Positions 3,011 through 32,311 of a DNA stretch of 34,185 bases are shown here, in pieces. The stretch is from a virus. Position numbers and translations under genes: made by a program. The notes under the pieces are model-generated. The model was not told the DNA's origin and did no database searches. It saw nothing but the letters and a program-made list of their open reading frames with translations. The DNA lies in IMG/VR virus record IMGVR_UViG_3300031951_000669, positions 1-34,185 of that record. The stretch is one strand, 5' to 3'. Each line of letters begins with the position of its first letter. Within the stretch, counting starts at the first letter, position 1.

Positions 3011-3382
3011 TTAGCCCCCCATTTCCCGCCGGTAACCTGGCCGTGTGATTTCCTGGACGCTCGAGCGCTGGCACGTTAAACCGTACCGCTGGCCCTTTTG
3101 TTTCGACTCCACAACCGTGTAGGTGTGTTTGCAATCGCCGGTTTGCAATTGGCTGTTTAACGGCACCTCCAACCCCTCAACGAAGACCACCCGTTCGATT
3201 ACCTTGGCCGTGGTTTGTGGGTTGCCTCTGCGGATCCACCGTTCAATTTCGCCGTGCACCACCGCGCCCGGTAGTGTTACCCACGCACAATTGGCGTTTG
3301 GCCGGTACCGCACGTTATCGCTACCAAACCAAATCGCGTGGTTTACACTTGCTGTTTGTGCGTTGGCTTGGTGGTATCCCAT
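3011..3382 (-). CDS. Head-tail connector / head-closure-like protein (123 aa)
   Basis: A small beta-rich protein with an internal pattern typical of neck proteins: AVVHGEIERWIRRGN followed by strands and a Cys-containing loop (TGDCKHTYTVVESKQKGQRY). It follows the 179-aa head protein gene, whose last codons (TTG GAG GAA TAA) supply a GGAGG Shine-Dalgarno right before this ATG, so the two are translationally coupled. Position directly after the capsid block and before tail genes favours a head-closure role. It could also be a minor capsid protein. Confidence 0.45.
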   Translation of the reverse strand: MGYHQANAQTASVNHAIWFGSDNVRYRPNANCAWVTLPGAVVHGEIERWIRRGNPQTTAKVIERVVFVEGLEVPLNSQLQTGDCKHTYTVVESKQKGQRYGLTCQRSSVQEITRPGYRREMGG

Positions 3383-3922
3383 TTATTCCTCCAACCATGC
3401 CACGATTTTGCGTTCGGCTGCTTTACCGATCCCCTCAACCTCTGCAAACCCTTGGTTGGTCGCGTAGAACTCGGCAACCGATTTGCGATCACGCAACCCG
3501 GCGTCGATCAATGCCCGGCCAATACGTTCGGGCAAACCGGCCAACGTGGTGGTGCCGGTTACCTCGTAGCGTTTGGCAACCTCGGCGGGCTCGGTGTCCG
3601 GCTCTGGATCCGGCATCGCGTTTAACGCGTCGGGGTCCAATTCGTCGTTTACCTCGGGCTGTTGTGGCTCGGGTTGTGGCTCGAGCGCTTCGGGCTGCGG
3701 CTGCGGTTGGCGATCCCGGCGAACCCGTTTGGTATCTGCGGGCACCGGCGGTTGGTCCAATAGCAATGCGGCGATCGCCTCGAATTTCAGGTCGCCAAAA
3801 TAGGCCGCTGAAATCACGTTGGAAATTTCAACCGGCGTGTGGATCGTTGCCACGGTTTCGCCTGGTTCAAAAACTCTACCGTCAACGGCCAATTTGTGTT
3901 TGGCCCGCAATTCAAATTTCAT
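3383..3922 (-). CDS. Head-completion-region protein with C-terminal helix-hairpin-helix domain (179 aa)
   Basis: The N-terminal 60 residues form a small beta/alpha domain (KHKLAVDGRVFEPGETVATI). A long acidic Pro/Gln/Glu linker follows (about 65-115, repeated PQPEP). The last 60 residues look like a helix-hairpin-helix/SAM-like domain (ALIDAGLRDRKSVAEFYAT...VEGIGKAAERKIVAWLEE), a fold used to hold nucleic acid or as a DNA polymerase/ligase-type minor-groove binder. In phages such proteins occur as head-tail connector (gp6-like) variants; DNA contact at the neck is a plausible job. It begins after the hairpin at 3950-3977. Confidence 0.5.
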   Translation of the reverse strand: MKFELRAKHKLAVDGRVFEPGETVATIHTPVEISNVISAAYFGDLKFEAIAALLLDQPPVPADTKRVRRDRQPQPQPEALEPQPEPQQPEVNDELDPDALNAMPDPEPDTEPAEVAKRYEVTGTTTLAGLPERIGRALIDAGLRDRKSVAEFYATNQGFAEVEGIGKAAERKIVAWLEE

Positions 3923-3949
3923 GGTTTGCCCCGTTGTGTGTTGAAACGA

Positions 3950-3977
3950 AAACGGCGGCGGTTGCCCGCCGCCGTTT
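3950..3977 (-). terminator. Stem-loop terminator or attenuator between the cement protein and the neck genes
   Basis: A perfect 12-bp inverted repeat (AAACGGCGGCGG / CCGCCGCCGTTT) with a 4-base loop. On the minus strand it is followed by TTTTCGTTTC. There is no new promoter evident after it, so it probably works as a partial terminator or 3' stabiliser that keeps capsid mRNA more abundant than neck/tail mRNA. Confidence 0.7.
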
Positions 3978-4018
3978 CACCCTTAACATGTCCCTCTCAT
4001 CCAATCGTTTGTTGGGTG

Positions 4019-4366
4019 TTAGTTCAATCGAACCAACACCGATGTTTCGTTTGCGACCTTGGCAACCTCGGCCTTACCAATTTGCGACGTGCCCGCCGTG
4101 CCGCTTGCAACGGCCAATTTGGTGGTCGTGTTGTAGTTAACCGCGGCACCTGCGGCAAACGTGGTAGCGGCTGCACTATCAACACGCACTAGCGCGTCGG
4201 TGCTCACGGCCACGGTTTCGCCTGCGGCAAAATCCGACGTATCACACACTAGCGCGGCCTTACCGGATCCGGTAAACACAATATCGCCGTTTGTCCCTGC
4301 GGCGGCTGCGGTGTATTCCTCGCGGCCTGCAAACCCGCCCAAATCCCTAACCAATTCGTTGGCCAT
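4019..4366 (-). CDS. Capsid cement/decoration protein, DUF2190-like (115 aa)
   Basis: A small beta-rich Ala/Thr/Val protein of the type seen directly downstream of capsid genes: G..GDIVFTGSGKAALVCDTSDFAAGETVAVSTDALVRVD...AAGAAVNYNTTTK. This alternation of short strands around an 'AGE.VAV' turn matches DUF2190 family capsid cement proteins. It is flanked by hairpins on both sides (4415-4459 upstream, 3950-3977 downstream), consistent with an independently tuned, highly expressed transcript. It would stabilise the mature shell by binding its outside surface. Confidence 0.6.
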   Translation of the reverse strand: MANELVRDLGGFAGREEYTAAAAGTNGDIVFTGSGKAALVCDTSDFAAGETVAVSTDALVRVDSAAATTFAAGAAVNYNTTTKLAVASGTAGTSQIGKAEVAKVANETSVLVRLN

Positions 4367-4414
4367 TTTTTAACTCGCTTATGTAAAAACTAACTCGTGT
4401 TTTATCCCCGCTGA

Positions 4415-4459: not shown

Positions 4460-4472
4460 CACAACGGCTTCG

Positions 4473-6842
4473 TTACGCTGTGCAACGCACTAGCGCGGCG
4501 GGTTTGATAACACCAACACCAATGTCGTGCACAATATCCCAACCGATGCCAAATTGGCCTGGTTGAGTTAGGGGTCGCACACGAATTGACGGTGCCCGGC
4601 CTGTTCCTCGGCGGAAACCAACTTGGATAGCCTGTTGGCCGGATTCCTCGGCAATGTACCAAGTGCTGGCCGAACCGCTTAGTTTGGTTTCGTTTAATGG
4701 GTTTACAACACCGATGTCCAACCGAGCATCGCTGCGCAATTGGTACTCACCTTCAAACGGGTTTGCGTTACCCGCCTGGGTGGTGTTACCGCTAACAACA
4801 AGGCTAGAGGAAACAATTTGTTTTCCTAACGGCCTGAGTGCACGCGGCACAATCAAAAACCCTGCCATCATGTCTAATGGTCGGGCAACACCTGATTTGG
4901 TTTTAACCGTCTGCGCGGCCAGGGCGGCCTCGGCCTTTCCGAGATTGTCTAGGCTTAGTGGGTTGTTGCCAACAACGTTGCCACGGTTGGCATGAAACAA
5001 CGTGGTGCCGTCTTTTAACGCGGCGTTTGCCTGTAGCACGGCGTAAACCAAATCGGGCCGCAAACGGGCGGCCATGGCCCCCATTTGTGAGGGCATCGTT
5101 TGGTTTGCTCCGACGGTGTCGTCGATAATGTCCATTTCGTCCAAAATAAACCGCCCGTCGTAGCGCGTTACCGCGTATGGTTCGCCGTAGTCGTTAAAAT
5201 CTACGTCCTTGGCTTCGGTGCCCCGAGTGTGGCGCCGTAGTCCCTGGGTGGCATCCAAACCGATCGGTTGGTTTAGGCGGAAATCTGCCCAATCGGCATC
5301 ACCCGTCCAACCGATAGTTGAATCTTTAAATTCGATAAACCCTTTAACCAGTCCGACGGAAACCAACGCGCCGAAAACGCGTGGCAAATAGGGGGTAGAA
5401 AATGATCGCTGGACCATTTCCTCAACGTCCCCGCTATCGCGTTGGCCGTCAATTTCCAAGATACGCTCACACGTGCGGGCGGCGCTGTCGGCGGAAAACC
5501 GGCGGCCTACGTCAATGAACCGTTCCAAATCCGAAACGCCTTCGTTGCCAATTTCGGCGTTGAATTGGTACAACCAACCGCACCCACTGCGCTCGAGAAC
5601 AACGCGGGCGGTTTCCGTTCCAAACACCGGGTTTTGCAAACTGATACCGGCACGCAACAAAACGGCGGCTTGCAAGGCTTCCACGCCCGCGCGTCGCATG
5701 CTGTGAATTGCCGGGGCTCGGTTCAATCCGTCCCCGCTTTGGTTGGTGCTGTGGCCTGCGGATTGGCCCCGCAATCGTTCCAACACGGCTAAACCGAATT
5801 GCTCGGGGGTCAAACCGTCGTTGATTGCTCGGGTAACCAATTCGTCGCTTTGGCCCTGGCCTAGTTCGCGGATCCTGGCCACGCGTGCGCGTTCGTCGCG
5901 GCGTGCAGCTTCGATTTGTTCCGCGGTGGCGTTTTGTCCGGCACGCTCGGCGGCTCGGCGGTCGGCTTGCTCGAGCGCTTCGCGTGCACCCGGTCGGCTT
6001 GCTCGGGTTGTTTCAATTTCGCCGTCGTCGTTTGCGTCGGCGTCGGTGTCATCGTCGGGGCCCTCAATGTTTCTCGTTGCAATCACCGCTGCAACGGCTT
6101 GGCGTTTGGCTCGGCGCTGGTCGGGGACTTTGTTTGTGCGGTTGGTGGTGCGAGTCGCACCGGTAGATCGTTTCACGCGTGTTTTCATTTTGCCCTCGCT
6201 GGTTGAAATGGCCCCTGTGGCCGGTGTTTCGTCAAATTGTGCCGGGGTTGTTTTTGCTGTCCGAATTTGCGAACGAATTACGGCTCGTGGGTCGGCTCCA
6301 AAATCAACCACGCTGGTTTCCTGCGCGGCCCATTTTTCGACCACACGCATTGGCCGGTCGGTCGCTGTGTATTTGCGGCCACCAAATCGCCCAGTTTGGC
6401 CGGGTTGCAACGTGGTGGTGTCTTTCATGCGATACGTGGCCCCAACGCTTACCGCGTCCAAATGGCCCTCGGAGACTCTTTGATAAATTTCTTCAACGTC
6501 GGCGGCTGCGGAAAACCTCAACGTGGCGTTAACCTCGGTGTCTGTAATTTCAAAATCAAACACCCGGCCAATTACCGCACGGCTCGACCAAACGTTGTGG
6601 TCCAAACGCAACGGCATTTTTTGCGGCTCGATCATGCCCGACGGCAATAAAACCTCGTCGATGTATCCATACTCCCCGTTTCCTAAATCGTCCCAAATCG
6701 CCACGGGCGTGTCGGTGGCAATCGTTGCCCGAACGGTGCGGCCCTGGGCATCGAGCGTTTTCGGCGCCTTGCTTGGTGCGGCTTTCCGTTTGGTGGTTTT
6801 GGTCGATCGACTATTGCGGCGGTGTGTCGTTCTGATGGTCAT
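4473..6842 (-). CDS. Prohead protease - major capsid protein fusion (789 aa)
   Basis: One polypeptide combines three capsid functions. Residues about 45-190 look like an HK97-type prohead protease: a His in LRLDHN (H82), a candidate nucleophile Ser in DAVSVGA (S132) and the closing motif SVVDFGADP (176-184). Residues about 190-370 are charged, repetitive and coiled-coil-prone (Arg/Glu/Ala-rich, with runs of D and T), as expected of a scaffold (delta) segment. Residues about 370-789 resemble a Mu gpT-like major capsid protein (MAARLRPDLVYAVL...FLIVPRALRP). It follows the portal gene by 3 bases. The protease presumably cleaves the scaffold and releases the capsid domain. Family roles are established; the catalytic residues are my reading. 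The N-terminal 30 residues are very basic. Confidence 0.8.
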   Translation of the reverse strand: MTIRTTHRRNSRSTKTTKRKAAPSKAPKTLDAQGRTVRATIATDTPVAIWDDLGNGEYGYIDEVLLPSGMIEPQKMPLRLDHNVWSSRAVIGRVFDFEITDTEVNATLRFSAAADVEEIYQRVSEGHLDAVSVGATYRMKDTTTLQPGQTGRFGGRKYTATDRPMRVVEKWAAQETSVVDFGADPRAVIRSQIRTAKTTPAQFDETPATGAISTSEGKMKTRVKRSTGATRTTNRTNKVPDQRRAKRQAVAAVIATRNIEGPDDDTDADANDDGEIETTRASRPGAREALEQADRRAAERAGQNATAEQIEAARRDERARVARIRELGQGQSDELVTRAINDGLTPEQFGLAVLERLRGQSAGHSTNQSGDGLNRAPAIHSMRRAGVEALQAAVLLRAGISLQNPVFGTETARVVLERSGCGWLYQFNAEIGNEGVSDLERFIDVGRRFSADSAARTCERILEIDGQRDSGDVEEMVQRSFSTPYLPRVFGALVSVGLVKGFIEFKDSTIGWTGDADWADFRLNQPIGLDATQGLRRHTRGTEAKDVDFNDYGEPYAVTRYDGRFILDEMDIIDDTVGANQTMPSQMGAMAARLRPDLVYAVLQANAALKDGTTLFHANRGNVVGNNPLSLDNLGKAEAALAAQTVKTKSGVARPLDMMAGFLIVPRALRPLGKQIVSSSLVVSGNTTQAGNANPFEGEYQLRSDARLDIGVVNPLNETKLSGSASTWYIAEESGQQAIQVGFRRGTGRAPSIRVRPLTQPGQFGIGWDIVHDIGVGVIKPAALVRCTA

Positions 6843-6845
6843 TTG

Positions 6846-8348
6846 TTAGGGTTGCTCCAGCTCTGTTTCGGTGTCAATTGCGGGCGTGTTTGGTAGGGTG
6901 TCAATTGGTTCGGAAATCGCGTTAATCGCGGCGATTTGCTCGGGTGTAAACGACGTGGGCACGGATCCAAACAACACCGGCAACCCGAGTGTTTTTAGCG
7001 CTTCGTTATCCTTGGCCCTAATACGCAACGTTTCCTCGGGTCGGCGTCCGTCGGCGGCGATTGCTTCGGATAGTGCCAACGTTCCGTTTTCCATCTTGAT
7101 TCGTTCCGCCATTGCGTCCTTGAGATTATCCACCGGCGGGGGCTTGGGCCACGTCCACGAAATCGGCAAAACAATGTTTGGAAACTCAAACGCCAAACGT
7201 TCCCATTTGTTTTGCCTTGGGGTCGGTCCCAACACGCCTGAGTATTGGGCGATCCGAACCAACCGGCGAACAATCGGCGTTAAAAATCGGCGTTCTAGTT
7301 TTGCCTGTATTCGTTCCACCGCTTTGGCGTATCTCGAACCATCAAACCGCGCCGAACTCATGTTGTGATTGGACGCGTCTTTTCTCAAAATCATCCATGG
7401 CATTTCCAACGCGGTTGCCACGTCGGTTAGTTTTTCCTTGCGGTATTCGCGGTAGGTAACCGCCGGTTGGTGCGCTGCAATCCCCTTGGGTTCCCAACCT
7501 GGAGCAATGTATTTTTCCACCCGACGTTGCACCTTGCGGGTCAAATTCTGCGGCTCTGCAAATTCGGCGTCGGGGTGATTTGTGCAAAAATAAACCGCGT
7601 GGTCGGCTGCGGCTCGGGCCGCGTCCTGTACTTGGTCGTCGTAGTCCCGCAAATCTGCGGCGGGTTGCAATACGCTTGCGAAACCTGGAAAACCACGTCT
7701 CTGCATTGCGAACCGTCGGCGGTAGTAGTGCAACGCTAGGCTCGCGGGTAGCGTATCTTTGGCCGTTGGGTTCGCCGGATCGTAGATCCGATACCCAACC
7801 ACCTTGCCGTTTTCGTCCACTTCCACGCCACTGTGCACGCGTGGGGCCACCAACGTGGTGTCCAACGCTTCGGGGCCTAAATCCAAAATTTGATAGTCCG
7901 CCACGCTGCGGCCTATAATTTCGCGGGCGAAAATTTCGCCGTAAATCATCCATTGGGCAACCCAACCGTCTAACAAATCCACTAGCGCCAAACCCGCTTG
8001 GTATTCGCACGCCGTGGCCCACTGTGCAAACATGGCCTCCACTTCGTCGTTAAACGCGTTGTCCGGCGTTAACACCTGGAGCGCTGGCCCTCGAGCGCTC
8101 ACAACGTTGGTTTGTTGCGTCTCGATTGCTGAATCTAAAACCGGGTTGTTGATCGACTCGTGGCGCACGCGGCGGTGTAGTTCCACCAAATCGGTGCGCA
8201 AATCCAAGTTTGGATTATCGCTAGCGTGTTGCCAATGGGCGTAGTTTAACCGATCGGTTTGGGCTGCTTCCCAATGCCGATTGGTTCCCCGCTGTTTCGG
8301 GGCTGCGGCGATCACTTCCCAAACGCCCCACGGTAGTTGGTCGGCCAT
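6846..8348 (-). CDS. Portal protein, lambda gpB-like family (500 aa)
   Basis: Length and pattern fit the lambda-type portal family: an N-terminal RLNYAHWQHASDN motif, LVELHRRVRHESINNPVLDSAIETQQTNVV-type helices near residues 50-80, a central DPANPTAKDTLPASLALHYYRR segment, and a C-terminal helix-rich crown ending in acidic residues. The protein forms the dodecameric ring at one capsid vertex through which terminase packages DNA. The start has a good RBS (AGGGGA, about 5 bases before ATG). Gene order gpW-like - portal - protease/capsid matches lambda W-B-C/E, except that the terminase is missing upstream. Confidence 0.85.
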   Translation of the reverse strand: MADQLPWGVWEVIAAAPKQRGTNRHWEAAQTDRLNYAHWQHASDNPNLDLRTDLVELHRRVRHESINNPVLDSAIETQQTNVVSARGPALQVLTPDNAFNDEVEAMFAQWATACEYQAGLALVDLLDGWVAQWMIYGEIFAREIIGRSVADYQILDLGPEALDTTLVAPRVHSGVEVDENGKVVGYRIYDPANPTAKDTLPASLALHYYRRRFAMQRRGFPGFASVLQPAADLRDYDDQVQDAARAAADHAVYFCTNHPDAEFAEPQNLTRKVQRRVEKYIAPGWEPKGIAAHQPAVTYREYRKEKLTDVATALEMPWMILRKDASNHNMSSARFDGSRYAKAVERIQAKLERRFLTPIVRRLVRIAQYSGVLGPTPRQNKWERLAFEFPNIVLPISWTWPKPPPVDNLKDAMAERIKMENGTLALSEAIAADGRRPEETLRIRAKDNEALKTLGLPVLFGSVPTSFTPEQIAAINAISEPIDTLPNTPAIDTETELEQP

Positions 8349-8662: not shown

Positions 8663-9919
8663 TTAGAACAAATCCAACTGGCGGCCACCTTGGGTAATGC
8701 GTCTGCGACTTTCTCGCACGCGTCGGCGTGCCTTGGCCATGTGTGCCCGGTCCAATTCGATACCGATAAACTTAAACCCGGCGGCCATTGCGGCAACGCC
8801 TGTGGTACCCGATCCGGCGAACGGATCCAATACCACGCCACCCGGTGGTGTGATTAAACGCACCAATTGCCGCATTACCTCAACGGGTTTAACCGTCGGG
8901 TGGTCGTTGGTATCGTCCAACCCTTTATCGCGTTCGGTGCGGGTCGGCTTGGGGCAATACAACACCCGCGCGGCTTCCTGCAACACTCGGCAAACCTCGG
9001 GGCTTTGATCGTGCCACACGTTGGTTGGCCAATTGCCCTGGGCATTGTTTGCAACACGCAATTGGTTTACGTGCAAACCGCCGGTGCCGTGCTGTAGCAC
9101 GTTTTCGGCCACGGTGCCGGTAAACGGTTTGCGGGCCAGTGTGATTGGCTCACACGCGGGTTTAATCGCGGTGTACCAACCGGCCCACGCTGCGGCCTGC
9201 GGTGTCAACGGCTCGGTTATCTCAATTTCTTTGTGCGTGGTAGTGCGTTTGTTTTGTGCGGCAATCGCCACGGGTCGGTCGGTTTTCAAATCGTGGGCTC
9301 GCCTGGTTCCTACGACCTTGCGGTTAGCTAGTTTTTTTGACTCAACGGAGCGTTTATCCGCTTCGGTTTCCACCCAATCGGGCACGTCGGCAAACAAATG
9401 GCGGCACAACTCTAAATGCTCTCGGGTCATTATCGCCGGTTGGCTTTTGGGGCTCACGTAGTGCCCGCCCATATTGGTGCCCGTGGCTCGGTCGATTTGG
9501 CTTGCTGTAACGCCCTGCGAACGCACCCACGCGGTAAACCGCAAACGGCGGGCACGCTGTGCGTGTTTTGCGTCCAACGCGTCGATCGCTTTGGAAATGT
9601 CTAGGGCTTTTGGAAAACCCGTAGCGTAAACCCACAAAATCAAATCGCGGATTTCAAACCCGGCATCCTCGATTGCTACGGCCATGCGGTGCTGCGTGCG
9701 GGTTCCTGCAAACGCAACCATGTGGCCCCCCGGTTTTAGAACGCGCAAACACTCGCGCCACACGTCCACGCCTGGCACGGCCTGGTCCCATTGTTTGCCC
9801 ATGAAACCCAACCCGTAGGGTGGATCCGTAACAATGGCGTCCACGCTGCCCGAGTCAAACCGTTTTAGTACCTGGGCACAATCGCCACGCAACAACCGAA
9901 ACGGTTTAGCGTTAAACAT
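8663..9919 (-). CDS. DNA methyltransferase, beta-class, N6-adenine or N4-cytosine (418 aa)
   Basis: Motif IV is DPPY (residues 32-35, within IVTDPPYGLGF) near the N-terminus, and the AdoMet-binding motif I, DPFAGSGTTG, is near residue 365. This IV-then-I order defines the beta class, and DPPY favours N6-adenine. The middle (about 110-270) would be the target-recognition region. No cognate restriction enzyme is visible nearby, so it is an orphan that could protect phage DNA or mark packaging/replication. The last five residues are QLDLF, a match to the bacterial sliding-clamp (DnaN) binding motif. I prefer the ATG at 9919, which overlaps the upstream stop by 8 bases, over a GTG at 9943 lacking an RBS. 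Confidence 0.85.
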   Translation of the reverse strand: MFNAKPFRLLRGDCAQVLKRFDSGSVDAIVTDPPYGLGFMGKQWDQAVPGVDVWRECLRVLKPGGHMVAFAGTRTQHRMAVAIEDAGFEIRDLILWVYATGFPKALDISKAIDALDAKHAQRARRLRFTAWVRSQGVTASQIDRATGTNMGGHYVSPKSQPAIMTREHLELCRHLFADVPDWVETEADKRSVESKKLANRKVVGTRRAHDLKTDRPVAIAAQNKRTTTHKEIEITEPLTPQAAAWAGWYTAIKPACEPITLARKPFTGTVAENVLQHGTGGLHVNQLRVANNAQGNWPTNVWHDQSPEVCRVLQEAARVLYCPKPTRTERDKGLDDTNDHPTVKPVEVMRQLVRLITPPGGVVLDPFAGSGTTGVAAMAAGFKFIGIELDRAHMAKARRRVRESRRRITQGGRQLDLF

Positions 9920-10187
9920 GGTCACCGACACGCCGCGCGGCACAAATCAAACACGCGGTGGTTTCGATTTTGTGCCCGCACCTGGGGCATTTAGTCGGCT
10001 GCTTGGTTCGTTTGACGTATGGCCCGCGTTTTGGTTTGTGTTTGGCTCGGCAATGCTTCACCGTGGCGAGGCTCACGTTGTACGTGTACGCCAATTGCTC
10101 TGCGGTCAAACTTGATTTGCCGATTACCTCGGCGGTTTTTTCGTCCACGCGTTTGGGGCTTAACTTAAACCGTTTTGTTTTAGGCAT
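9912..10187 (-). CDS. Small HTH - zinc-ribbon DNA-binding protein (91 aa)
   Basis: Residues 28-48 (LTAEQLAYTYNVSLATVKHC) form a helix-turn-helix. The C-terminus has a four-cysteine ribbon, CPRC (67-70) and CLIC (79-82), likely binding zinc, with a Lys/Arg-rich linker between. It overlaps the upstream coiled-coil gene by 8 bases and the downstream methyltransferase by 8 bases, so it is in the same operon. It may regulate late genes or guide another protein to DNA. A second protein at 25105-25392 has the same HTH-plus-ribbon design. Confidence 0.6.
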   Translation of the reverse strand: MPKTKRFKLSPKRVDEKTAEVIGKSSLTAEQLAYTYNVSLATVKHCRAKHKPKRGPYVKRTKQPTKCPRCGHKIETTACLICAARRVGDHV

Positions 10188-11446: not shown

Positions 11447-12396
11447 GCTTGCACCTGTTCCTGACGTTCTAAAACTGCGTTGGCCATGGCGTCGGCCTGG
11501 CCGTCGGTAATTGTTTTCCCGCGTCGGCGGGCGTCCAAAACGATTTGGCCGCGTATGGCTTCAAACGCTTGTTGGCGTTTCATGCGATCCAACGCCACGG
11601 CTCGGCGTTGCTCGGTTTGTGGGTTGGGCAACTCAACGCACCACGCGCCGTTGCGGATCCGGTCAACCAATGCCCCTGCGCCGTCGAATAACGCACGGTG
11701 TTGGGTGAACTGCCCGAGTATGGCCAACACGTCGGCGGGGCTGTATCCGGCATCCTTGGCGGCCAAAATCGCCGCCTGGGTCCGAGTCACCCCGGCACCC
11801 TCGAGCGCTGCGGCTACTTCCCGCCATGGGTCCGGCTGTTGGTGTTGATTTTTTACAACTTCCACCGCCGCCTCTCGGGGTGGCGGATTTACGGATTTAA
11901 CGGATAAATCGGAAATATAGTATGGCCGTTTCGCGCCGGGTCCGGCGCCGGGGCAAGCGCCGGGGCCAACGTCGGGTCCGGCGCCGGGTCCGGCGCCGGG
12001 GGGGGTGGCCAGTGATTGAACCACCCGCATTTGTAGCTCCACCACCACGCCAACAACTGCCCCCCGATCATCGACCAACAGTTCCGTTTGCACCACGCCC
12101 GCCGTGCGCAACCGGCGAACGGCTCGGCCTACGCTTTCGGCGTTGCACCCGCAACGCTCGGCCAGTTCCGCCCACGTGCCACTCCAACGCAATCCCGTTA
12201 AACCCTTGGCGCGGTGGCTCGGGCTGTCCACAAACACCGCCAACGTACCGGCCACGCGGTGTAAAACCTCACCGGGCCGCGCACCGAGTTTGACGGCTGC
12301 GGCTTCACACGCTCGGGCACGCTCTGCCCTAATTCGCGTTTCGGCGGCCCGTTCGACCTCGGCGGATTCCCCCCAATCAAACCGCAATTGTTCCAT
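11443..12396 (-). CDS. Replication-initiator candidate with winged helix and intragenic origin (317 aa)
   Basis: Residues about 70-125 (SGTWAELAERCGCNAESVGR, RRLRTAGVVQTELLV) form a winged-helix DNA-binding domain. Residues 131-156 are a flexible Pro-Gly-Ala linker encoded by 12-bp tandem repeats, followed by a segment encoded by AT-rich 9-mers. The C-terminal half (185-317, YSPADVLAILGQF, LVDRIRNGAW) is helical and resembles helicase-loader-type domains of phage replication proteins. The layout parallels lambda gpO: initiator with origin repeats in the linker-coding part. Start chosen at 12396 because GGAGG lies 7 bases before this ATG; the longer open frame upstream overlaps another gene. 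The N-terminus QLRFDW may be a degenerate clamp-type motif. Confidence 0.6.
   Translation of the reverse strand: MEQLRFDWGESAEVERAAETRIRAERARACEAAAVKLGARPGEVLHRVAGTLAVFVDSPSHRAKGLTGLRWSGTWAELAERCGCNAESVGRAVRRLRTAGVVQTELLVDDRGAVVGVVVELQMRVVQSLATPPGAGPGAGPDVGPGACPGAGPGAKRPYYISDLSVKSVNPPPREAAVEVVKNQHQQPDPWREVAAALEGAGVTRTQAAILAAKDAGYSPADVLAILGQFTQHRALFDGAGALVDRIRNGAWCVELPNPQTEQRRAVALDRMKRQQAFEAIRGQIVLDARRRGKTITDGQADAMANAVLERQEQVQA
11884..12004. other. Candidate replication origin: AT-rich 9-mers next to 12-bp iterons
   Basis: Four near-identical 8-9 base units beginning CGGA (CGGATTTA, CGGATTTAA, CGGATAAAT, CGGAAATAT) occupy 11884-11918, the most AT-rich stretch in this gene. Fourteen bases on, six tandem 12-bp units of the type GCGCCGGGTCCG fill 11933-12004 (the fourth unit diverged). 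An easily melted repeat block beside initiator-binding iterons is the standard layout of an origin, and it lies inside the gene of the probable initiator. The alternative is that the repeats only encode a Pro-Gly linker. Confidence 0.5.
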
Positions 12397-13069: not shown

Positions 13070-13243
13070 TTAGTTTCCTTCCGTGCGAAACTTCCGCGTT
13101 CCGTTTTCGTAGGTGGCCAAATCCGATTTGGGCACCCAAACACCATCGCGGGCCTGTGTGTACCCAAACAAATGGGCGTATTTTTCGATCCATCCCGCGT
13201 CAATTTCGACCCTGCGGCGCTCAAACGTCATGGCAACGGCCAT
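13070..13243 (-). CDS. Small early protein (57 aa)
   Basis: ATG at 13243, TAA at 13072-13070. It begins MAVAMTFERRRVEIDAGWIE and ends in a basic tail (GTRKFRTEGN). The start overlaps the preceding gene's stop by one base (TAATG), and the next gene begins two bases after this stop. The charge pattern and packing support a real gene even though it is short. It fills a stretch (13070-13243) that would otherwise look non-coding. Function unknown. Confidence 0.6.
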   Translation of the reverse strand: MAVAMTFERRRVEIDAGWIEKYAHLFGYTQARDGVWVPKSDLATYENGTRKFRTEGN

Positions 13244-13608: not shown

Positions 13609-14151
13609 TTACTCCCCTCGTTCGCTGCGGTGTAGGCTTTCAAAATACAAACGCACCATTTCGTCGATGGTTACGTGGCTTTCTTCGTCACGGATAAACG
13701 CGGCGGCCATATCGCCAACGTCGGTTGGGTCCGCGGCACCCTCGAGCGCTACGGCAACCTCTTGGATTAACCGCCGTTGTTTGTCCCTCAATACCTGGGC
13801 CTCTTTGGCGATCTTGCGCAACCCCCGCCGCAAATTGCGGGCGCGTTCCTGCTTGGCCGGTTCGGCCAGTTGCTCGACGGGCCTGTATTGGCGATCCAAC
13901 CGCACAAACTGCAACAACCCGGCGGTTAAATTGGTGTAGCGTTGCACCTTACCGGTAAACACCGGCGCACAATCTCCACGCCCTTGGCTCGGGTCAACCT
14001 CGGCCAGTACCAACACGTCGCGGATTAGTTCGCGTACTTGCCAAACCGTCGCGCGGGTTTGGTCACCTGTAAGGTGCACGCCGTAAAATTGGCCAACCTG
14101 TAGCGGCTCGTCAAATTGGTCGACCATGTAGTTGCGCAAATTTCTACCCAC
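13609..14151 (-). CDS. Early protein with basic coiled-coil segment (180 aa), function unknown
   Basis: The GTG at 14151 is favoured over the ATG at 14127 because GGAGG lies 7 bases before it. The N-terminal half includes QFYGVHLTGDQTRATVWQVR. Residues about 100-135 are very basic and helical (AEPAKQERARNLRRGLRKIA and on), suggesting nucleic-acid binding or a coiled coil. The end is acidic-helical (IDEMVRLYFESLHRSERGE). It starts just downstream of the hairpin at 14181-14215, so its mRNA level may be attenuated. No known family recognised. Confidence 0.6.
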   Translation of the reverse strand: MGRNLRNYMVDQFDEPLQVGQFYGVHLTGDQTRATVWQVRELIRDVLVLAEVDPSQGRGDCAPVFTGKVQRYTNLTAGLLQFVRLDRQYRPVEQLAEPAKQERARNLRRGLRKIAKEAQVLRDKQRRLIQEVAVALEGAADPTDVGDMAAAFIRDEESHVTIDEMVRLYFESLHRSERGE

Positions 14152-14226: not shown

Positions 14227-14523
14227 TCAAAACAACTCCAACTGCACCGGTTTGTCCCGGTGCTTCAAACAAACAACCGTGGCCGTTTTTCCGTGCGGGG
14301 TTTGCCGTGTTTCCTCCGTCGAAAACACCCAACCGTCGGCCTCTAATTCCTTCACACGCCCACAAACCGAACTCAATGGCATTGCCAACTCGGCGGCGAT
14401 TTCGTGCCGCGTGCACCCTTTAGCGTGGCGCTCGAGTAGTTCGCAAATTCGGCGTTTAACGGTTGGTAGATTTTCCAACGCGTAAAACGTTTCGTTTCGG
14501 TTTGTTTCGCTGTGGACGCTCAT
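14227..14523 (-). CDS. Winged-helix regulator with C-terminal clamp motif (98 aa)
   Basis: Residues about 20-75 (VKRRICELLERHAKGCTRHE, AAELAMPLSSVCGRVKELEA, DGWVF) form a MarR/ArsR-like winged helix with the wing at FSTEETRQTPHG. The final five residues are QLELF, a good match to the sliding-clamp binding motif, which is unexpected in a small regulator. It is second in the early operon (ATGA overlap with the first gene; G-rich RBS), so it could be an early regulator or a host-replication modulator. The start at 14523 is chosen from the RBS and overlap. It is one candidate for the factor acting at the TTGCAA palindrome, without direct evidence. Confidence 0.65.
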   Translation of the reverse strand: MSVHSETNRNETFYALENLPTVKRRICELLERHAKGCTRHEIAAELAMPLSSVCGRVKELEADGWVFSTEETRQTPHGKTATVVCLKHRDKPVQLELF

Positions 14524-15440: not shown

Positions 15441-15689
15441 ATGGAAACCAACGAAACGACACAACCGGCCCTCGTGGCCCAGTTGGTGGCACGGGTGGCC
15501 GAACAACTCGAGCGCAACCGCAACACGCCACCGCGTGCGGCTTATCCACTTGCGGAAATCGCCATAATGATTGGCGTTTCCAAACGGGTTATTGAAACTC
15601 AAATAAACACCGGCCAGTTGCGGGCCAAACGCGTTGGGCGTGTTTTGGTGGTCACTCACCGGGAATTGGAACGGTGGCTCTATGGCTAG
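15441..15689 (+). CDS. Excisionase-like helix-turn-helix protein (82 aa)
   Basis: Residues about 35-80 (YPLAEIAIMIGVSKRVIETQ, QLRAKRVGRVLVVTHRELERWL) match the MerR-like/excisionase HTH fold used by recombination directionality factors. An N-terminal helical extension (LVAQLVARVAEQLERNRN) may dimerise. The gene overlaps the integrase start by 8 bases (ATGGCTAG), so the two are translationally coupled. The start at 15441 has only a weak GGGG signal; an in-frame ATG at 15405 is possible. The role would be to control the direction of integrase action at attP. Confidence 0.75.
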   Translation: METNETTQPALVAQLVARVAEQLERNRNTPPRAAYPLAEIAIMIGVSKRVIETQINTGQLRAKRVGRVLVVTHRELERWLYG

Positions 15690-16833
15690 CGTTTGGAAAC
15701 ACAAACGGGGCGGTTGGTACCTCGAAATCGCCATGCCCGTTGGCCCGTCTCGAAAAATCTACCTTGGCCGGATCCCCTCGAGCGCTGCGCACTCGGTGCG
15801 GCTGCGGGTCGAACAACTCGCGCGGCTGGCCCGAGTGGGCGAACCGCCAACGCCTGAATTGGCGGCGTGGCTCTCGGCGTGCGATCAAACGTTTTTGGCG
15901 GCTCTCGGTGCGGTGGGTTTGCTGCGGGCGTGGAAATCTGACGCAACGCCCCGGTTGGTCGATTGGTGGGCCCAGTATGTTTCACGGCGCACCGATTTTT
16001 CGGCGGCCACTATCAAGGGTTGGCAAACGGCGTTTGTGCACGTGTCGCAACGTTGGCCCCACCAAACGCTAAAAGATATAAACGCTTTGGACGCAAAAAC
16101 GTTTGCTAGGGATTTAGGCCTGGCCGTGTCGGAGTCTCACGCGGCCAAAATCGTTGGCCGGTGTGCCCAAGTGTTTCGGGCGGCGATGGACGCCAAACTG
16201 GTTACCGAAAACCCCTTCGATGGAATCAAACTCGGGCGGGCGATCGACAAAACCCGAAAACGGTATGTCGACGATGCCACGGCCCGGCGTGTGTTAGAGG
16301 GTTTCGCAACACTAGAGGGGCGGGCGTTGTTTGCTTTGGCTCGGTGGTGCGGGCTGCGGGTGGTTTGCGAAACGCTGCCACTCACGTGGGCCCACGTCGA
16401 TTTAGCGGAAAACCGGCTAACAATTCCAAACAACACGAAAACCGGTTTGCGCGTTGTTCCACTGTTTGAACCGGCCCGCACGGAATTGGCCGCGCTTTAC
16501 GATGCTGCGCCCGAAACCCCCTGGGTGTTCAATCGTTGCCGGGCGTCGGCTGGTACTCAATGGCGGACCTGGTTGTTAACCGCGTGCCGCACGGCGGGCG
16601 TTGAACCCTGGCCAAAACTGTGGCACAACTTGCGGGCCGCTTGCCGGACTGATTTGGAAGAACGTTTTCCATCTCACGTGTGCGATTGTTGGGTGGGTCA
16701 CTCAACGCGGGTGGCCAAGGACCACTACCTACGGGTCACGCCGGACCACTGGGCCGCGGCCTGTGGATCCGTGCTAACACCACCGAAACCCGACGAAACG
16801 CACGAAAACAACCGCGCACGGGTCGAACCGTAG
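15682..16833 (+). CDS. int: Tyrosine integrase (383 aa)
   Basis: The C-terminal catalytic domain (about 195-360) has all tyrosine-recombinase residues: R226 (GLRVVCETLPLTW), K253 (NTKTG), H315-x-x-R318 (HNLR), H340 (GHS) and Y349 (HYLRV). The core-binding domain (about 85-185) includes SESHAAKIVGRCAQVFRAAM. An N-terminal basic segment (SVWKHKRGGWYLEI) is the arm-type-site binding part. The HNLRAACRTDLEERFP pattern strongly recalls integrases from Planctomycetota. It is the last plus-strand gene; the probable attP region and a terminator follow. It would insert the phage into the host chromosome and, with the excisionase-like protein, remove it. Confidence 0.9.
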   Translation: MASVWKHKRGGWYLEIAMPVGPSRKIYLGRIPSSAAHSVRLRVEQLARLARVGEPPTPELAAWLSACDQTFLAALGAVGLLRAWKSDATPRLVDWWAQYVSRRTDFSAATIKGWQTAFVHVSQRWPHQTLKDINALDAKTFARDLGLAVSESHAAKIVGRCAQVFRAAMDAKLVTENPFDGIKLGRAIDKTRKRYVDDATARRVLEGFATLEGRALFALARWCGLRVVCETLPLTWAHVDLAENRLTIPNNTKTGLRVVPLFEPARTELAALYDAAPETPWVFNRCRASAGTQWRTWLLTACRTAGVEPWPKLWHNLRAACRTDLEERFPSHVCDCWVGHSTRVAKDHYLRVTPDHWAAACGSVLTPPKPDETHENNRARVEP

Positions 16834-19893: not shown

Positions 19894-22314
19894 TTAACCC
19901 CCGGACAATTTTGGGAAAAACTGCAAAGGGTCCAATTCTCCAAACGACGTTTGCACCGTAAACGTTGGCGCGGTGTAGTTTCCATCAACACCCACACCCA
20001 TGGTTAACGCAACCTCGGAGATTTGCGCGTTGCATGTGGCCGCGTGCGTGGTGTTGGCGTTAACGGTGCCGATTATCTGCCCTGGCCATAGCTTGGCCGT
20101 CGCTCGGCGGCTCACCACCCGCACAATGGCCCGTGGCTGAAAATAGTAGTTGGCTGCGAACTCAGCAAACTGTGTAGCCAACGGCGTATCGTCCCTGAGT
20201 GTAAACCGGGCCGGTACGGTCACCGGTCCGGCATCGGTCGCGGCAACGATGGTGTCTTTCATCACAACGACGTTTTGGAAACGCTCACCCAACCGGATGG
20301 TTTTAACGCGGTCGGCGTCAATGTTTACGGTGCCGGGGGTTTGTCCGGCGGGTTGGGTTACTGTGGCCGGGTTGCGTTTGATTACCTGGGCCCGTTGGTC
20401 GGATTGTGCCGCCACCGTTATGCGCAACTCTGCGGGGTCGATTTTGGGAACGTGCGGGGCCACTCGGCCACCACCGGCGGCCAATGCGCCTTGGTAACCC
20501 CCGGTTACATCGAGTTCTAAACCCACGGCCATTTGGTTGGTTAGTTCTTTGGCCGTTATGCCGTAACTCGGGTCGTTTGGATCATACAACACGTCCCGCA
20601 CGGCCTTGGTGCTCCAACAAATCCATTTACCGGTTAACGTTGCGTCGGACTCGTGGGTTTTGGCGTACACCTCACAACGCCGCCATGGTGTGCGTGCCGC
20701 CTCGTGGGCGGTGCGAACGGCTGCGGTGTCGGCTGCGGCGTAGTCGATCCCCTCGCGCAACGGTAGATCGGATAGCAAACGCAATCGCAAACCAAACGGG
20801 TAATAATCGGTTTTCCCAAAATTGAACCCTGGGTCGGCGTTCGTTTCGGTGTATTGAAAAACGTTAACCGCGGGCGTTGAATCCTGCCAATTGTATGTGT
20901 GTTTTATCCGCCAATGGCGGCCTATGGGTTGGTAGCGGGGCAATTCTCGAATGTCCCGCATACGTTGCAATTGTCGCATTATCGCGGGGTTTAGTCCGGC
21001 GATCTCGGCGTTGTAGGCTTCCTCGAGCGCAAACGGCCATGCGGGTTCCAATTGGTTTGCCGTGTCGATCGTAAACACCACAATTTTGGGGGCACCTTCA
21101 ACAACCAGCGCGGTGTACTGTTGCGCGCCGTTGGTTTGCACGCTTATGGCCGTCGCTGAATCGTTGGCCGCCGTCAAATTAACCACGCGCAAATTGGCCG
21201 GAAACGTTTTTTGTGTGCCGGTTTCGTCCTGAATTGTGGCGGGCAACGTTATGGTCGTAAACGGTTCGACGTATAACCGGTTAGGTGTTGTGGTTTCGTC
21301 CACCCAAACCCAATACCCGTGTCCGTTTTGCGGTGCCAATAGTCGATCCAATGCCCCCTTGAGGGTTAAACCCTCGGCGTCGAACCGCGGTAAAAACCAA
21401 TCGGCAAATTGCGTGGTTGTGTTTGGCGGGTTCAAAACGTCGTGGTCGAAAATCCACACCGGCACGTATGCGGTTTTAAAATCGTCGGGGTCTTGAACGT
21501 CGGCCAACGGGGCAAAATCACTACCAACGCCAACCCGCGGCGCGTTCAACGCCACCAAGTTTTCCAAAACGTCCCCGAGTCTCCACGCGTCGGCGTTGGT
21601 CAATGTTGTCACCCCATACAAACCTGGGAAGCTGTGAACGTAAATGTTGCGGTCTTGGTTTTGGATGCCAAACCCGCGGGCAACCTCGGTGGTGTTGGTG
21701 CGTGTTTTGGCGATTTGAAATCCACCGAACCGGCTAACGTTTTCGAGGGCCTTGTTGTCCGATACGTTGAACTGCGGCGCTGACCATGCCACGCGGGTGG
21801 TGTTTCCGACAAACGCAAAATCCGCACCCACCCGGTGGTAGGTGCGCTCGATCGGTGCCCGATCCAATGCGGCGATCATGCCGACACAACTTAGCGTTTG
21901 CACGCCGTGGGCCTCGGCTGCGATCGTCGGCGGATCCCCCGGTATGGTTCGCGGTATCAACCCGCCCTGTTCGTCGGCTAGATCGTCAACGAACCCGTGC
22001 CACACTCGGTTGCCGTCGCTGCAAACGGCCAAAATTTTTACGTAGTGCCCCAACCACGTTTTTTTGGTTCGCGTCGTTTCAACCGTGGCCCCCTGTTCCA
22101 AGACGCGCCCGTAACGGTAACGAATGGTGGCCGTTGGTATGTTTGGGGCTGCGTTCCAACTCACTTGCAACAAATCCAACGTTGCATCGGCAACCCACGG
22201 GTCGGCCCAACGCTGTTTGGTGTAGATCGTCACCGACACGTCGTTGCCGATTGAATCGCCAAACGTTAACGCGTTGTTGGTCGGCTGCGGGTGCGGATAG
22301 GGAAACGCGCTCAC
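19894..22314 (-). CDS. Large baseplate/tail-hub protein candidate (806 aa)
   Basis: The largest distal tail protein. The N-terminal domain (SVTIYTKQRWADPW, DLLQVSWNAAPNIPTATIRY, WLGHYVKILAVCSDGNRVWH) has the barrel-like pattern of tail-hub proteins (gpD/gp27-like), including the GFVDDL segment expected before the first domain boundary. The middle carries AFVGNTTRVAW- and FADWFLPRFDAEG-type segments, and the C-terminus has FSFGELDPLQ-like strands. It follows the tape measure by two small genes, the normal hub position. It would form the central part of the tail tip. No peptidase or lysozyme motif is evident. Confidence 0.6.
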   Translation of the reverse strand: MSAFPYPHPQPTNNALTFGDSIGNDVSVTIYTKQRWADPWVADATLDLLQVSWNAAPNIPTATIRYRYGRVLEQGATVETTRTKKTWLGHYVKILAVCSDGNRVWHGFVDDLADEQGGLIPRTIPGDPPTIAAEAHGVQTLSCVGMIAALDRAPIERTYHRVGADFAFVGNTTRVAWSAPQFNVSDNKALENVSRFGGFQIAKTRTNTTEVARGFGIQNQDRNIYVHSFPGLYGVTTLTNADAWRLGDVLENLVALNAPRVGVGSDFAPLADVQDPDDFKTAYVPVWIFDHDVLNPPNTTTQFADWFLPRFDAEGLTLKGALDRLLAPQNGHGYWVWVDETTTPNRLYVEPFTTITLPATIQDETGTQKTFPANLRVVNLTAANDSATAISVQTNGAQQYTALVVEGAPKIVVFTIDTANQLEPAWPFALEEAYNAEIAGLNPAIMRQLQRMRDIRELPRYQPIGRHWRIKHTYNWQDSTPAVNVFQYTETNADPGFNFGKTDYYPFGLRLRLLSDLPLREGIDYAAADTAAVRTAHEAARTPWRRCEVYAKTHESDATLTGKWICWSTKAVRDVLYDPNDPSYGITAKELTNQMAVGLELDVTGGYQGALAAGGGRVAPHVPKIDPAELRITVAAQSDQRAQVIKRNPATVTQPAGQTPGTVNIDADRVKTIRLGERFQNVVVMKDTIVAATDAGPVTVPARFTLRDDTPLATQFAEFAANYYFQPRAIVRVVSRRATAKLWPGQIIGTVNANTTHAATCNAQISEVALTMGVGVDGNYTAPTFTVQTSFGELDPLQFFPKLSGG

Positions 22315-28477: not shown

Positions 28478-28489
28478 TGGTCGCGCGTC

Positions 28490-28927
28490 CTATCTGCGAA
28501 AAATTCGCCGCAACGGCCCGGTTGCGTTGGTTGTTTGCGGTCGGCAAACGTCCCCGGTACAAACCGTTTCGGTTGTTTGAGTAATTGTAGTGGCGCTTTG
28601 GTATTGTCCAATCGTTTGCGGTTGGCTTGGGGCCAGTTCCACCACGGTTGGCGTTTGCCACGGCTCGGGGGCTGCAACGCTCGAGCGCACCGGCTCGGGG
28701 CTTGGCTTGCTTCCCTCGGTTTGGTTTTCAAGGGTTGCCACGCGTTGTTCCAATCGGGTAATGCGGGCTCGAAGCGCTGGCAACGTGGCATCGCTCGGGC
28801 TGGATACTTCCCAATGGTCCTGGTTTTCCTGCGATCCGGCCACGCCTGTGGGTGCGTTGGCAAACATAGCGGCGAACGCAACACCGACGGCACAAATCAC
28901 GGCGGCCAAAATGCGGTTGTTGTTCAT
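28490..28927 (-). CDS. Exported or membrane-anchored protein (145 aa)
   Basis: A hydrophobic N-terminus (NNNRILAAVICAVGVAFAAM) is a signal peptide or anchor; an Ala-x-Ala-type site (FANAPTG) follows near residue 25. The rest has a short coiled coil (LRARITRLEQRVATLENQ) and a Pro/Thr-rich, low-complexity tail ending in PLRRIFRR. Two cysteines (TVCTGDVCR) may form a disulphide if exported. It could span the periplasm in an envelope-lysis complex. No known family recognised. Confidence 0.55.
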   Translation of the reverse strand: MNNNRILAAVICAVGVAFAAMFANAPTGVAGSQENQDHWEVSSPSDATLPALRARITRLEQRVATLENQTEGSKPSPEPVRSSVAAPEPWQTPTVVELAPSQPQTIGQYQSATTITQTTETVCTGDVCRPQTTNATGPLRRIFRR

Positions 28928-28933
28928 AACGGT

Positions 28934-30075: not shown

Positions 30076-30557
30076 TTGGTGAACCCCTCGAGCGCTTCTA
30101 AAAATTCTCGAACGTCGGCTGGCAATGGCATTTCCTTGGCCCGTTTTGGATTGGCAAACACAACCACCGGTGGGCGGCTGCGGATCCGCTGGCGCAACCG
30201 TCGCCACTCGGGGGCCAAATCGTCGGTGTTATCGTCGGCGTCCAAAAACAGTATTTCACCGTCTGCACGCTGGATTGCCTCGCGGATTTGCACCGAGTTA
30301 AAAATCGCCAATTGGTCGGCGTCCAAATCGCTGCGGTTGGCGCTTTCCTCGATTACCAACACACGCAACCCGGTTACCCCTGTAGGTTCGCTGTTGGGCG
30401 TGTTGTTGCGTGCGAGCATGTACAACACCACGGCCCCGAGTAGCACCCACGGCGCGAACCGCCAAACGGTTTCCCATGGGATTTGTGGGCCTTGGTTGTG
30501 CGGCTGTGGATCCACAACCACCGGCGCGTTTAACCAATCGCTGTTTGTTGTTGCCAT
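30072..30557 (-). CDS. Membrane-anchored thioredoxin-like protein candidate (161 aa)
   Basis: A proline-rich cytoplasmic start, one TM helix at about 34-49 (FAPWVLLGAVVLYMLA) and an alpha/beta domain (LRVLVIEESANRSDLDADQL, DGEILFLDADDN, RPPVVVFANP). The strand-helix order and the Pro before VVVFANP resemble a thioredoxin fold, but there is no CxxC, so it is not a redox enzyme. It precedes the peptidase with an ATGA overlap and may anchor or position it. The fold assignment is tentative. Confidence 0.5.
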   Translation of the reverse strand: MATTNSDWLNAPVVVDPQPHNQGPQIPWETVWRFAPWVLLGAVVLYMLARNNTPNSEPTGVTGLRVLVIEESANRSDLDADQLAIFNSVQIREAIQRADGEILFLDADDNTDDLAPEWRRLRQRIRSRPPVVVFANPKRAKEMPLPADVREFLEALEGFTK

Positions 30558-30560
30558 GGC

Positions 30561-31184
30561 TTAGTTCCCCTCGGTGGATCCGGCGGTAGGTTTGGAGGAT
30601 TCCGTTCCGCCGGATCCACGAGTTTGTAGTTCGGCCAGTAGTTCGTCGGCAATCCCTTGGCGTTTCACAATCTCGGCCAACGTGCCCTGAACCATGGCGG
30701 CAAATTTGGCTATCTCGGGGTTGGTAAACTCCAAGGTTCGCGCGGCACCTTGCACGGCTGCGGCGGTCGCTGTGGCTTGGCCTGCCTGGCCTGCGGCTGT
30801 TTGTGCCTGGGTCAACGCCTGGGCTACTCGAGCGCGTAGGGCCTGGCCGTTTCGCCAATTTGCGATCATCGAAAACGCACCGGCGGCCAAATCGCTAAAC
30901 ACACGCCACCCCATGGTTGCGGCAAATATGCCACCACCGCCTAGCGCCACCACGAAATCGACTAACAACGGAATTAACACGCCGGTTACGGTTGAAACCA
31001 TAGCGAACCCCTCGGGGGCTGCTTGCTGCGGGGCCACGGCGGAAAACACAAACCCGGCGATCAACCGACGGTTTACCCAAAACGCGTACAACATGGCCAA
31101 ACCCACCAAAAACCGTAGCCCTTTCGATGGTGGCTCTGCAATTACTACCGTGTGCGTTGTATTCAAATTTCCCGTTGTGTTCAT
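30561..31184 (-). CDS. Multi-pass membrane protein, holin candidate (207 aa)
   Basis: Two to three hydrophobic helices: about 23-38 (LRFLVGLAMLYAFWV), 41-52 (LIAGFVFSAVAP) and 61-93 (VSTVTGVLIPLLVDFVVALG). A long Ala/Gln/Thr-rich helical region (about 110-170) and a Ser/Gly tail follow. It is first in the membrane/peptidase cassette. Holins usually have two or three helices but shorter tails; the Ala/Gln coil could be an interaction arm. The holin role is inferred from position before the peptidase. Confidence 0.45.
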   Translation of the reverse strand: MNTTGNLNTTHTVVIAEPPSKGLRFLVGLAMLYAFWVNRRLIAGFVFSAVAPQQAAPEGFAMVSTVTGVLIPLLVDFVVALGGGGIFAATMGWRVFSDLAAGAFSMIANWRNGQALRARVAQALTQAQTAAGQAGQATATAAAVQGAARTLEFTNPEIAKFAAMVQGTLAEIVKRQGIADELLAELQTRGSGGTESSKPTAGSTEGN

Positions 31185-31234
31185 GCTTTCAACCTACGGC
31201 CTGAAAATTGCCTGTCCTAATTACCAACCCATTT

Positions 31235-31275
31235 GCCACGCGTAAAAATCGGCGTGGCTTCCTGTAACGCGTGGC
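31235..31275 (-). other. Competing inverted repeats in the 31185-31306 gap
   Basis: GCCACGCG at 31235-31242 can pair with either GCGTGGC at 31252-31258 or CGCGTGGC at 31268-31275. These mutually exclusive stems lie between the 248-aa gene and the membrane cassette and might act as an attenuator. No long T run follows, so the effect is uncertain. The rest of the gap shows no gene. Confidence 0.3.
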
Positions 31276-31306
31276 ACCTGGCCCAATTGCATAGCCGCCC
31301 GCCAAA

Positions 31307-32053
31307 CTACGTACCGGCCCCACCGGCGGCCAATTCTGTTTTTTTTTCCACCCACCGTTTGATCGTCGGGAAATCTAGCGCGCAATGCACCAACGCGTCG
31401 CGGGCCGTCACGTTGTAAATATCCTCAAATAACCCTAGTTCCGCGTGGCTTAGGCGGTAGTTTGCGGTCAATGCGGCAACTGCCAAATTGTCGATTTCCG
31501 CAAACGCAAACGTTTTGGCATCGGCGGCAACCGCTTGGGCGTGGGCGTCGGCATAACCGTGGGCCAGTTGCAAAAAATAGCGGTATTCGCGGGCCACCTT
31601 GGTTGGCAACCATTTACCCGTTTTGCCGTCATAGGCTAGGGTCTGCGGCAACGGGGTAAAGTATGTTTCATCCTCAACGTTAAACCCTCGGGCTATGGCT
31701 GCGGTCCAAACGGATCCGTCGGCTAGTGTAACGCTGTGGCCGTCAAGCAATCGCGGGCGCTCGAGTTTGGACGGATCCAACGTTTCATCGTTCCACCGGC
31801 CCACGTAACACCCCTGGGGGCCGTCGGGGTTAAAAACCGCTGCCCAATTTTGTTGCTCGGGCTCGATTTTTAGATCACGTTTCCAAACGTTCCGTTGGGT
31901 AGCGCACCGCCACAACCAACCCGGCCCGCTTCCATCGGGTCCGGCCAACACTTCCCGCGTTTGATAGGTAACACCCCGGTCGGTGGCGTAGTTTAAACAC
32001 TGTGGCAATTCAAACGCGGCACCGTCCACGCGGGGCACGTAGTAGAAAAACAT
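31307..32053 (-). CDS. Tail-region protein (248 aa), function unknown
   Basis: Begins MFFYYVPRVDGAAFELPQCL. Rich in aromatic residues with an Asp/Pro-containing middle (NPDGPQGCYVGRWNDETLDP) and a helical C-terminus (HGYADAHAQAVAADAKTFAF, RLSHAELGLFEDIYNVTARD). It follows the 75-aa gene downstream of the tail tube, the region where tail-assembly chaperones are found in many siphophages. It is in the same frame as that gene, separated by a stop and ten codons. The chaperone role is a guess; no enzymatic motif is visible. Confidence 0.5.
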   Translation of the reverse strand: MFFYYVPRVDGAAFELPQCLNYATDRGVTYQTREVLAGPDGSGPGWLWRCATQRNVWKRDLKIEPEQQNWAAVFNPDGPQGCYVGRWNDETLDPSKLERPRLLDGHSVTLADGSVWTAAIARGFNVEDETYFTPLPQTLAYDGKTGKWLPTKVAREYRYFLQLAHGYADAHAQAVAADAKTFAFAEIDNLAVAALTANYRLSHAELGLFEDIYNVTARDALVHCALDFPTIKRWVEKKTELAAGGAGT

Positions 32054-32083
32054 GGTTTTGGTTCCGTTGTGATTGTGCGGCGG

Positions 32084-32311
32084 TTAAACCGCTTTGTTTC
32101 GCGGGTTTAACAACTCGCGGATTTCGTCAATTCCACCCATTAACAACATATCGGTGGCCGCTTCCCAACTGTCGGCGGCCTCTAATTGGTCGGCGATGTA
32201 CCTGGGACCCATGCCCGTAGCGTCGGCGATTTCCTGGGCAACACGCGGGCGATTCTCGAGCGCGTGCGGGTCAAACTCTGGTTGGTCGGTCGGCTGCGGT
32301 GCGTTTGCCAT
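32084..32311 (-). CDS. Small acidic helical protein after the tail tube (75 aa)
   Basis: Begins MANAPQPTDQPEFDPHALEN; an acidic three-helix pattern (VAQEIADATGMGPRYIADQL, EAADSWEAATDMLL) resembling small helical bundles. Directly follows the tail tube gene with a 3-base gap, so it may be the short form of a tail-assembly chaperone. The next gene is in frame 30 bases after the TAA. No slippery heptamer for a -1 frameshift is seen at its end. Confidence 0.5.
   Translation of the reverse strand: MANAPQPTDQPEFDPHALENRPRVAQEIADATGMGPRYIADQLEAADSWEAATDMLLMGGIDEIRELLNPRNKAV

Follow-up and report, generated by a model that had tools for sequence, protein, structure and literature searches.

The HIP sequences of cyanobacteria are over-represented DNA words for which lineages switch from one word to another, and alternate HIPs accompany a matching methyltransferase (PMC4390886). 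Known HIPs are full palindromes, and their extensions stay palindromic (PMC4390886). Chi is an exact short word over-represented in some lambdoid phage genomes (PMC3784561), and the stoperators of mycobacteriophages are 13-mers that lie in short gaps between genes, oriented according to transcription (PMC9283540). The original prediction had compared the 9-mer CTCGAGCGC to HIP1, and HIP sequences are indeed its closest known analogue; a literature search for CTCGAGCGC in phages found no report.

The window, by which we mean the whole stretch of DNA analysed here (34,185 bases), is a virus record encoding a lambda-type portal, a GpA-type terminase, a fused protease and capsid protein, and an integrase; its genes are nearly all on the minus strand and many are of unknown function. 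CTCGAGCGC occurs in it 17 times, 14 on the plus strand and 3 on the minus strand. The 16 copies counted originally are all present where they had been placed, and the copy at 5589-5597 (-) had been overlooked. CTCGAG also occurs exactly 17 times, with CGC on one side in 17/17 and none unextended, as had been claimed, and our recount agrees with the earlier figure of eight copies of CTCGAGCGC that extend to CTCGAGCGCT (CGCT). The copies of CTCGAGCGC are listed here with the related genomes (G numbers, introduced below) that share them.

3060..3068, plus strand: extends to CGCT; phase 2 of the gene at 3011-3382 (-)
3680..3688, plus strand: extends to CGCT; word in G008; in G003 CTCGAG is kept with a GCC flank
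5589..5597, minus strand: word in G003, G005, G008, G004, G010 and G009
5970..5978, plus strand: extends to CGCT; word kept in all G003-like and G008-like relatives
8090..8098, plus strand: extends to CGCT; portal gene, phase 1; also in G009
11800..11808, plus strand: extends to CGCT; flank GCG in G008, G004, G009 and G013, GCC in G003, G005 and G012
13741..13749, plus strand: extends to CGCT
14428..14436, minus strand: private to the window
15507..15515, plus strand: word also in G003, G012 and G013
15777..15785, plus strand: extends to CGCT; integrase gene; kept in all six genomes aligned
17833..17841, plus strand: word also in G012
21022..21030, plus strand: word in G012; CTCGAG with a TCG flank in G003 and G013
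28680..28688, plus strand: G008 has the word in opposite orientation around the same CTCGAG
30087..30095, plus strand: extends to CGCT; word in G008 and G010; TCG flank in G003 and G006
30827..30835, plus strand: private to the window
31757..31765, minus strand: word in G008, G010, G012 and G013
32255..32263, plus strand: the sole intergenic copy

Called genes contain 16 of the 17 copies, which fall in all three frames and in both orientations on the coding strands, and a peptide repeat as the source of CTCGAGCGC was rejected on these grounds. The codon nulls described below agree, and the earlier view of a DNA-level feature with no single peptide repeat is upheld. Spacing of the copies along the genome is random, and even or clustered spacing was rejected. 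A Holliday-junction-resolvase-like gene (13243-13605) and a winged-helix gene (14227-14634) are located near the integrase.

The number of CTCGAGCGC copies expected was 0.08 from dinucleotide shuffles and 0.10-0.64 from Markov models of orders 0-4. In the codon null, codons were shuffled among identical amino acids with codon usage kept, and also with both neighbouring bases fixed; the coding sets were taken by homology to our ORF calls, not by a gene finder. The original prediction had named a codon-shuffled null reproducing about 16 copies as the outcome that would speak against it. Codon shuffles of window coding DNA gave 0.26 CTCGAGCGC and 2.0 CTCGAG, compared to 15 and 15 observed, and in the relative G008 12 CTCGAGCGC were observed against 0.29 expected. 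The codon-aware ranking of 9-mers that had also been proposed placed CTCGAGCGC at the top of all 9-mers in the window (15 vs 0.24) and again in G008 (12 vs 0.27). Its 27 one-mismatch neighbours together were at background (7 observed vs 6.7 expected), which fits an exact reader of CTCGAGCGC. When hexamer palindromes were compared in three strict genomes (defined below), a flank rule was found in CTCGAG only (35/35), with a typical best flank of ~20%. CTC accounts for 5% of Leu codons in the window genome, and the window's missing unextended CTCGAG is mainly a by-product, because CTC is rare and only ~2 CTCGAG are expected in coding DNA. The signal lies in the enrichment of the 9-mer CTCGAGCGC, not in the window's lack of unextended CTCGAG taken by itself.

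Viral contigs searched for capsid, terminase, and portal relatives yielded ~17 records of the same phage clade. Counting the word in related phages, another check suggested at the outset, showed that strict relatives carry CGC on every CTCGAG: the window (17/17), G008 (13/13), G027 (9/9), G004 (8/8), G010 (7/7), G007 (5/5), G009 (5/5) and G011 (3/3), eight records that represent three lineages and not eight independent cases, one of the three (G009) being a 10-kb fragment. The relaxed records (G001, G002, G003, G005, G006, G012 and G013) hold 133 CTCGAG in mixed contexts, a total in which G002 and G003 overlap heavily; relaxed lineages contain 19 CTCGAG where 2.8 are expected and 26 where 5.75 are expected, without a CGC preference. 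Two more distant members have no CTCGAG excess, with 0 in the 34 kb of G025 and 1 in the 26 kb of G026. On a capsid-plus-portal tree, strictness requires two changes and does not form one clade, and at several sites a synonymous GCG/GCC flank is all that distinguishes strict genomes from relaxed ones. The top 9-mer of the relaxed G012 is CCCTCGAGG (10 vs 0.5 expected), a different extension of the CTCGAG core. The search for other phages carrying CTCGAGCGC was not exhaustive; a viral-contig pattern scan for paired words returned, among the matches listed, mostly GC-rich contigs and none with the low CT/AG signature described below.

To express enrichment relative to opportunity, we counted as a permitted site every place where the proteins allow CTCGAGCGC by synonymous choice. 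The three strict lineages fill 15/38, 12/25, and 4/8 of their permitted sites (31/71 in total) and 0/294 of the other permitted CTCGAG sites (p ~1e-25). No context effect was seen in relaxed G003 (6/32 word sites vs 13/123 others, p = 0.23) or relaxed G012 (5/21 vs 21/114, p = 0.55), and these fill rates indicate that relaxed lineages favour the hexamer CTCGAG and strict ones the 9-mer CTCGAGCGC. Strict-lineage saturation is ~40-50%. A filling near 45%, where codon usage alone predicts ~1% or less, suggests that each copy brings a moderate additive advantage, or is subject to a mutational drive, nearly wherever it lies. The sites are also retained: at conserved amino acids, CTC codons were kept in 8/9 cases inside CTCGAG and 6/18 elsewhere between the window and G008 (p = 0.013), and in 7/7 and 4/20 cases, respectively, between G008 and G003 (p = 0.0004). 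CTCGAG positions are conserved beyond protein constraint.

The enrichment of CTCGAGCGC points to a factor reading the phage's DNA. The word is best read as double-stranded and without polarity, favoured by selection regardless of its position. A temperate phage clade would gather the word, as a short double-stranded recognition word, through synonymous changes wherever its proteins allow, and the copies, numerous and each conferring a small benefit of about the same size, would be read by a sequence-specific DNA factor. The stringency of this reader would vary among lineages, at six bases (CTCGAG) in some and nine (CTCGAGCGC) in others. We tentatively propose that a phage-specific reader selects maximal copies and that the differences between sister lineages (CTCGAG vs CTCGAGCGC) are differences in its stringency, making the word HIP-like and virus-owned rather than host-owned. 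It is likewise possible, at a confidence well short of even, that CTCGAGCGC is a HIP-like recognition word gathered by the clade for DNA modification, the reader being the phage's PF01555 methyltransferase, which is of orphan type, or a partner of this enzyme. The gene concerned is the following.

8663..9943, minus strand: PF01555 N6/N4 DNA methyltransferase, the candidate reader; no restriction partner recognised

All three strict lineages carry the PF01555 methyltransferase, as does the relaxed G003 lineage, where it is 80% identical; it is absent from G012, G013, G025 and G026. Its presence in every strict lineage and its absence from the two members without CTCGAG excess were counted in favour of a modification reading. 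Relaxed G012 and G013 enrich CTCGAG without it; in its stead G025 has a Dam-like methyltransferase and G012 a D12-type enzyme, located elsewhere in the genome. Twenty-four unrelated phage contigs with 42-58% identical methyltransferases had no overall CTCGAG excess (84 vs 75) and a slight CTCGAGCGC excess (10 vs 4.3), and CTCGAG was still not in excess in unrelated methyltransferase phages in which a helix-turn-helix-like region is >70% identical. The enzyme as a general driver of the word was rejected on the basis of these contigs, with a helix-turn-helix-like region that does not track CTCGAG. The link is weak, because relaxed G003 has the enzyme and unrelated enzyme-bearing phages lack the word. 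Methyltransferases rarely read 9 bases. Among the window genes, the methyltransferase alone tracks word presence, imperfectly, and no other gene does so.

The copies could instead be binding sites, dispersed through the genome in the manner of stoperators, for a phage-encoded DNA-binding protein such as a repressor, a partition protein or a nucleoid protein, a reading that we consider doubtful. The word is phage-specific with positions conserved between lineages, a winged-helix gene lies at 14227-14634 near the integrase, and stringency differences among lineages would follow changes in the protein. However, the copies are found inside genes in any frame, randomly spaced and unoriented, unlike stoperators, and with 40-50% of permitted places filled, the benefit would seem not to depend on position. 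G025, which has no CTCGAG, carries the winged-helix gene too.

Orientation bears on whether CTCGAGCGC is a Chi-like word, read by a host recombination nuclease as Chi is by RecBCD or AddAB, whose copies would shield phage DNA against degradation or stimulate recombination. A polar function had been proposed from a 14:2 orientation bias. The ratio, 14:3 in the window, is not significant once the sites that the proteins permit in each orientation are taken into account: permitted sites filled by orientation were 4/16 vs 11/22 in the window (p = 0.18), 6/12 vs 6/13 in G008, and 12/33 vs 19/38 in the pooled strict lineages (p = 0.34). Site 28680 reads GCGCTCGAGCGT in the window and AGCCTCGAGCGC in G008, with the core kept and the extension on the other side. 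A polar mark was therefore rejected after correction for permitted sites; amino-acid opportunity explains the orientation, and one site is flipped in a relative. Chi is directional, and the lack of significant bias after correction, the flip at 28680, and the palindromic core make a Chi-like role unlikely, as do the sampled genomes of the candidate host family, which are not rich in CTCGAGCGC. A density-type additive benefit would fit such a role, as would the window's gene content, in which no phage recombinase was recognised and only a Holliday-junction-resolvase-like gene was found, given that lambdoid phages lacking recombinases over-represent Chi (PMC3784561).

Restriction pressure is a further alternative that we consider improbable. 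A CTCGAG-cutting enzyme would purge the site unless a CGC neighbour permits protective methylation of at least one strand, which would account for the constant presence of one CGC flank or more, for the disappearance of unflanked CTCGAG from strict lineages, and for the absence of CTCGAG from G025 (0/149 permitted sites, 3.8 expected). Yet avoidance predicts few sites, compared to the ~58-fold enrichment found, and CTCGAG is itself actively enriched in relaxed lineages. When the three strict lineages are pooled, the loss of unflanked CTCGAG (0 vs ~4 expected, the latter our downward adjustment of codon-usage figures) is only nominally significant (p ~0.017).

The remaining alternative of comparable, low probability is that amelioration has given the phage a signature of its host's genome, with a HIP1-like word in the host chromosome. 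The phage is temperate with an integrase, and related prophages occur in Planctomycetota. A portal relative (34% identity) was found in a Phycisphaerae contig of this phylum, and terminase relatives (31-43% identity) in planctomycete genomes, with identities up to 43% at prophage-like loci in larger genomes; a terminase scan of genome contigs and an integrase scan of viral contigs gave no match. A planctomycete host, as suggested in the original prediction, is plausible from these sequence relationships, the terminase relatives being a lead only, as other phyla were not sampled alike. The host-signature part of that prediction fared worse. In the Planctomycetota family to which the best prophage relatives belong, possibly not the host's own family, CTCGAGCGC density across 240 genomes was at most ~0.1 per kb, compared to 0.5 per kb in the phage. 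Counting paired patterns in 392 genomes from the phylum led mainly to very GC-rich genomes, and no host-wide signature was found in the genomes sampled; the planctomycetes read among those with many CTCGAGCGC copies were mostly very GC-rich. The related prophage regions in the genomes G893 and G895 carry no CTCGAGCGC.

The clade has a distinctive composition. The CT/AG dinucleotide is extremely depleted in the window (observed/expected 0.47) in all three codon phases, TT/AA is in excess (1.67), and 55% of the window's Leu codons are TTG. CT/AG depletion is common to the clade and the related planctomycete prophages (G893, contig C18, 105001-125000), with ratios of 0.53 and 0.59 in the G893 and G895 prophage regions, and is milder in host chromosome samples (0.74 and 0.78). 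A second 9-mer, CCGCAGCCG, is over-represented in window coding DNA (18 vs 1.75 expected) and also in G008 and G026, the latter being without CTCGAG excess. GGATCC is five-fold over-represented in window coding DNA (32 vs 6.2 expected), and likewise in G008.

That CTCGAGCGC arises as a side effect of composition, from the clade's codon bias and its strong avoidance of CT/AG, is very unlikely: the depletion is extreme and other CT-containing words, such as CCGCAGCCG, are over-represented too, but codon- and neighbour-preserving shuffles give 0.26 copies, one-mismatch neighbours are not enriched, and G025 and G026 share the dinucleotide bias without the word.

The function of HIP1-type iterated words is still open, and this phage clade, at 34 kb, reduces the hunt for a reader to a much smaller system, with members that are strict, relaxed, or word-free and with few variable genes to consider. 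Should the reader belong to the phage itself, synonymous change can write phage genomes near saturation for a DNA signal, and codon-usage and host-prediction methods would be biased.

Among the known systems, both stoperators and Chi resemble CTCGAGCGC in copy number. Like stoperators, of which there are >20 (PMC9283540), it is an asymmetric word scattered through the genome of a temperate phage. Stoperators lie between genes and follow the direction of transcription, whereas 16/17 copies of CTCGAGCGC are in genes and the copies are unoriented. Chi and CTCGAGCGC are both exact short words over-represented in phages, but CTCGAGCGC has a palindromic core and no orientation dependence and, unlike Chi, is not enriched in sampled relatives of the candidate host. 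HIPs are chromosomal while CTCGAGCGC belongs to a phage clade, and HIPs have reported associated methyltransferases where the phage's PF01555 enzyme, with its mixed correlation, is a candidate partner only. CTCGAGCGC as a whole is not a palindrome, because its CGC extension is one-sided and only the CTCGAG core is palindromic. It is over-represented beyond codon and composition nulls, as HIPs are, and has in common with HIP1 (GCGATCGC) and the alternate HIPs a short GC-rich sequence, a palindromic core, huge over-representation, and the switching of words between lineages.
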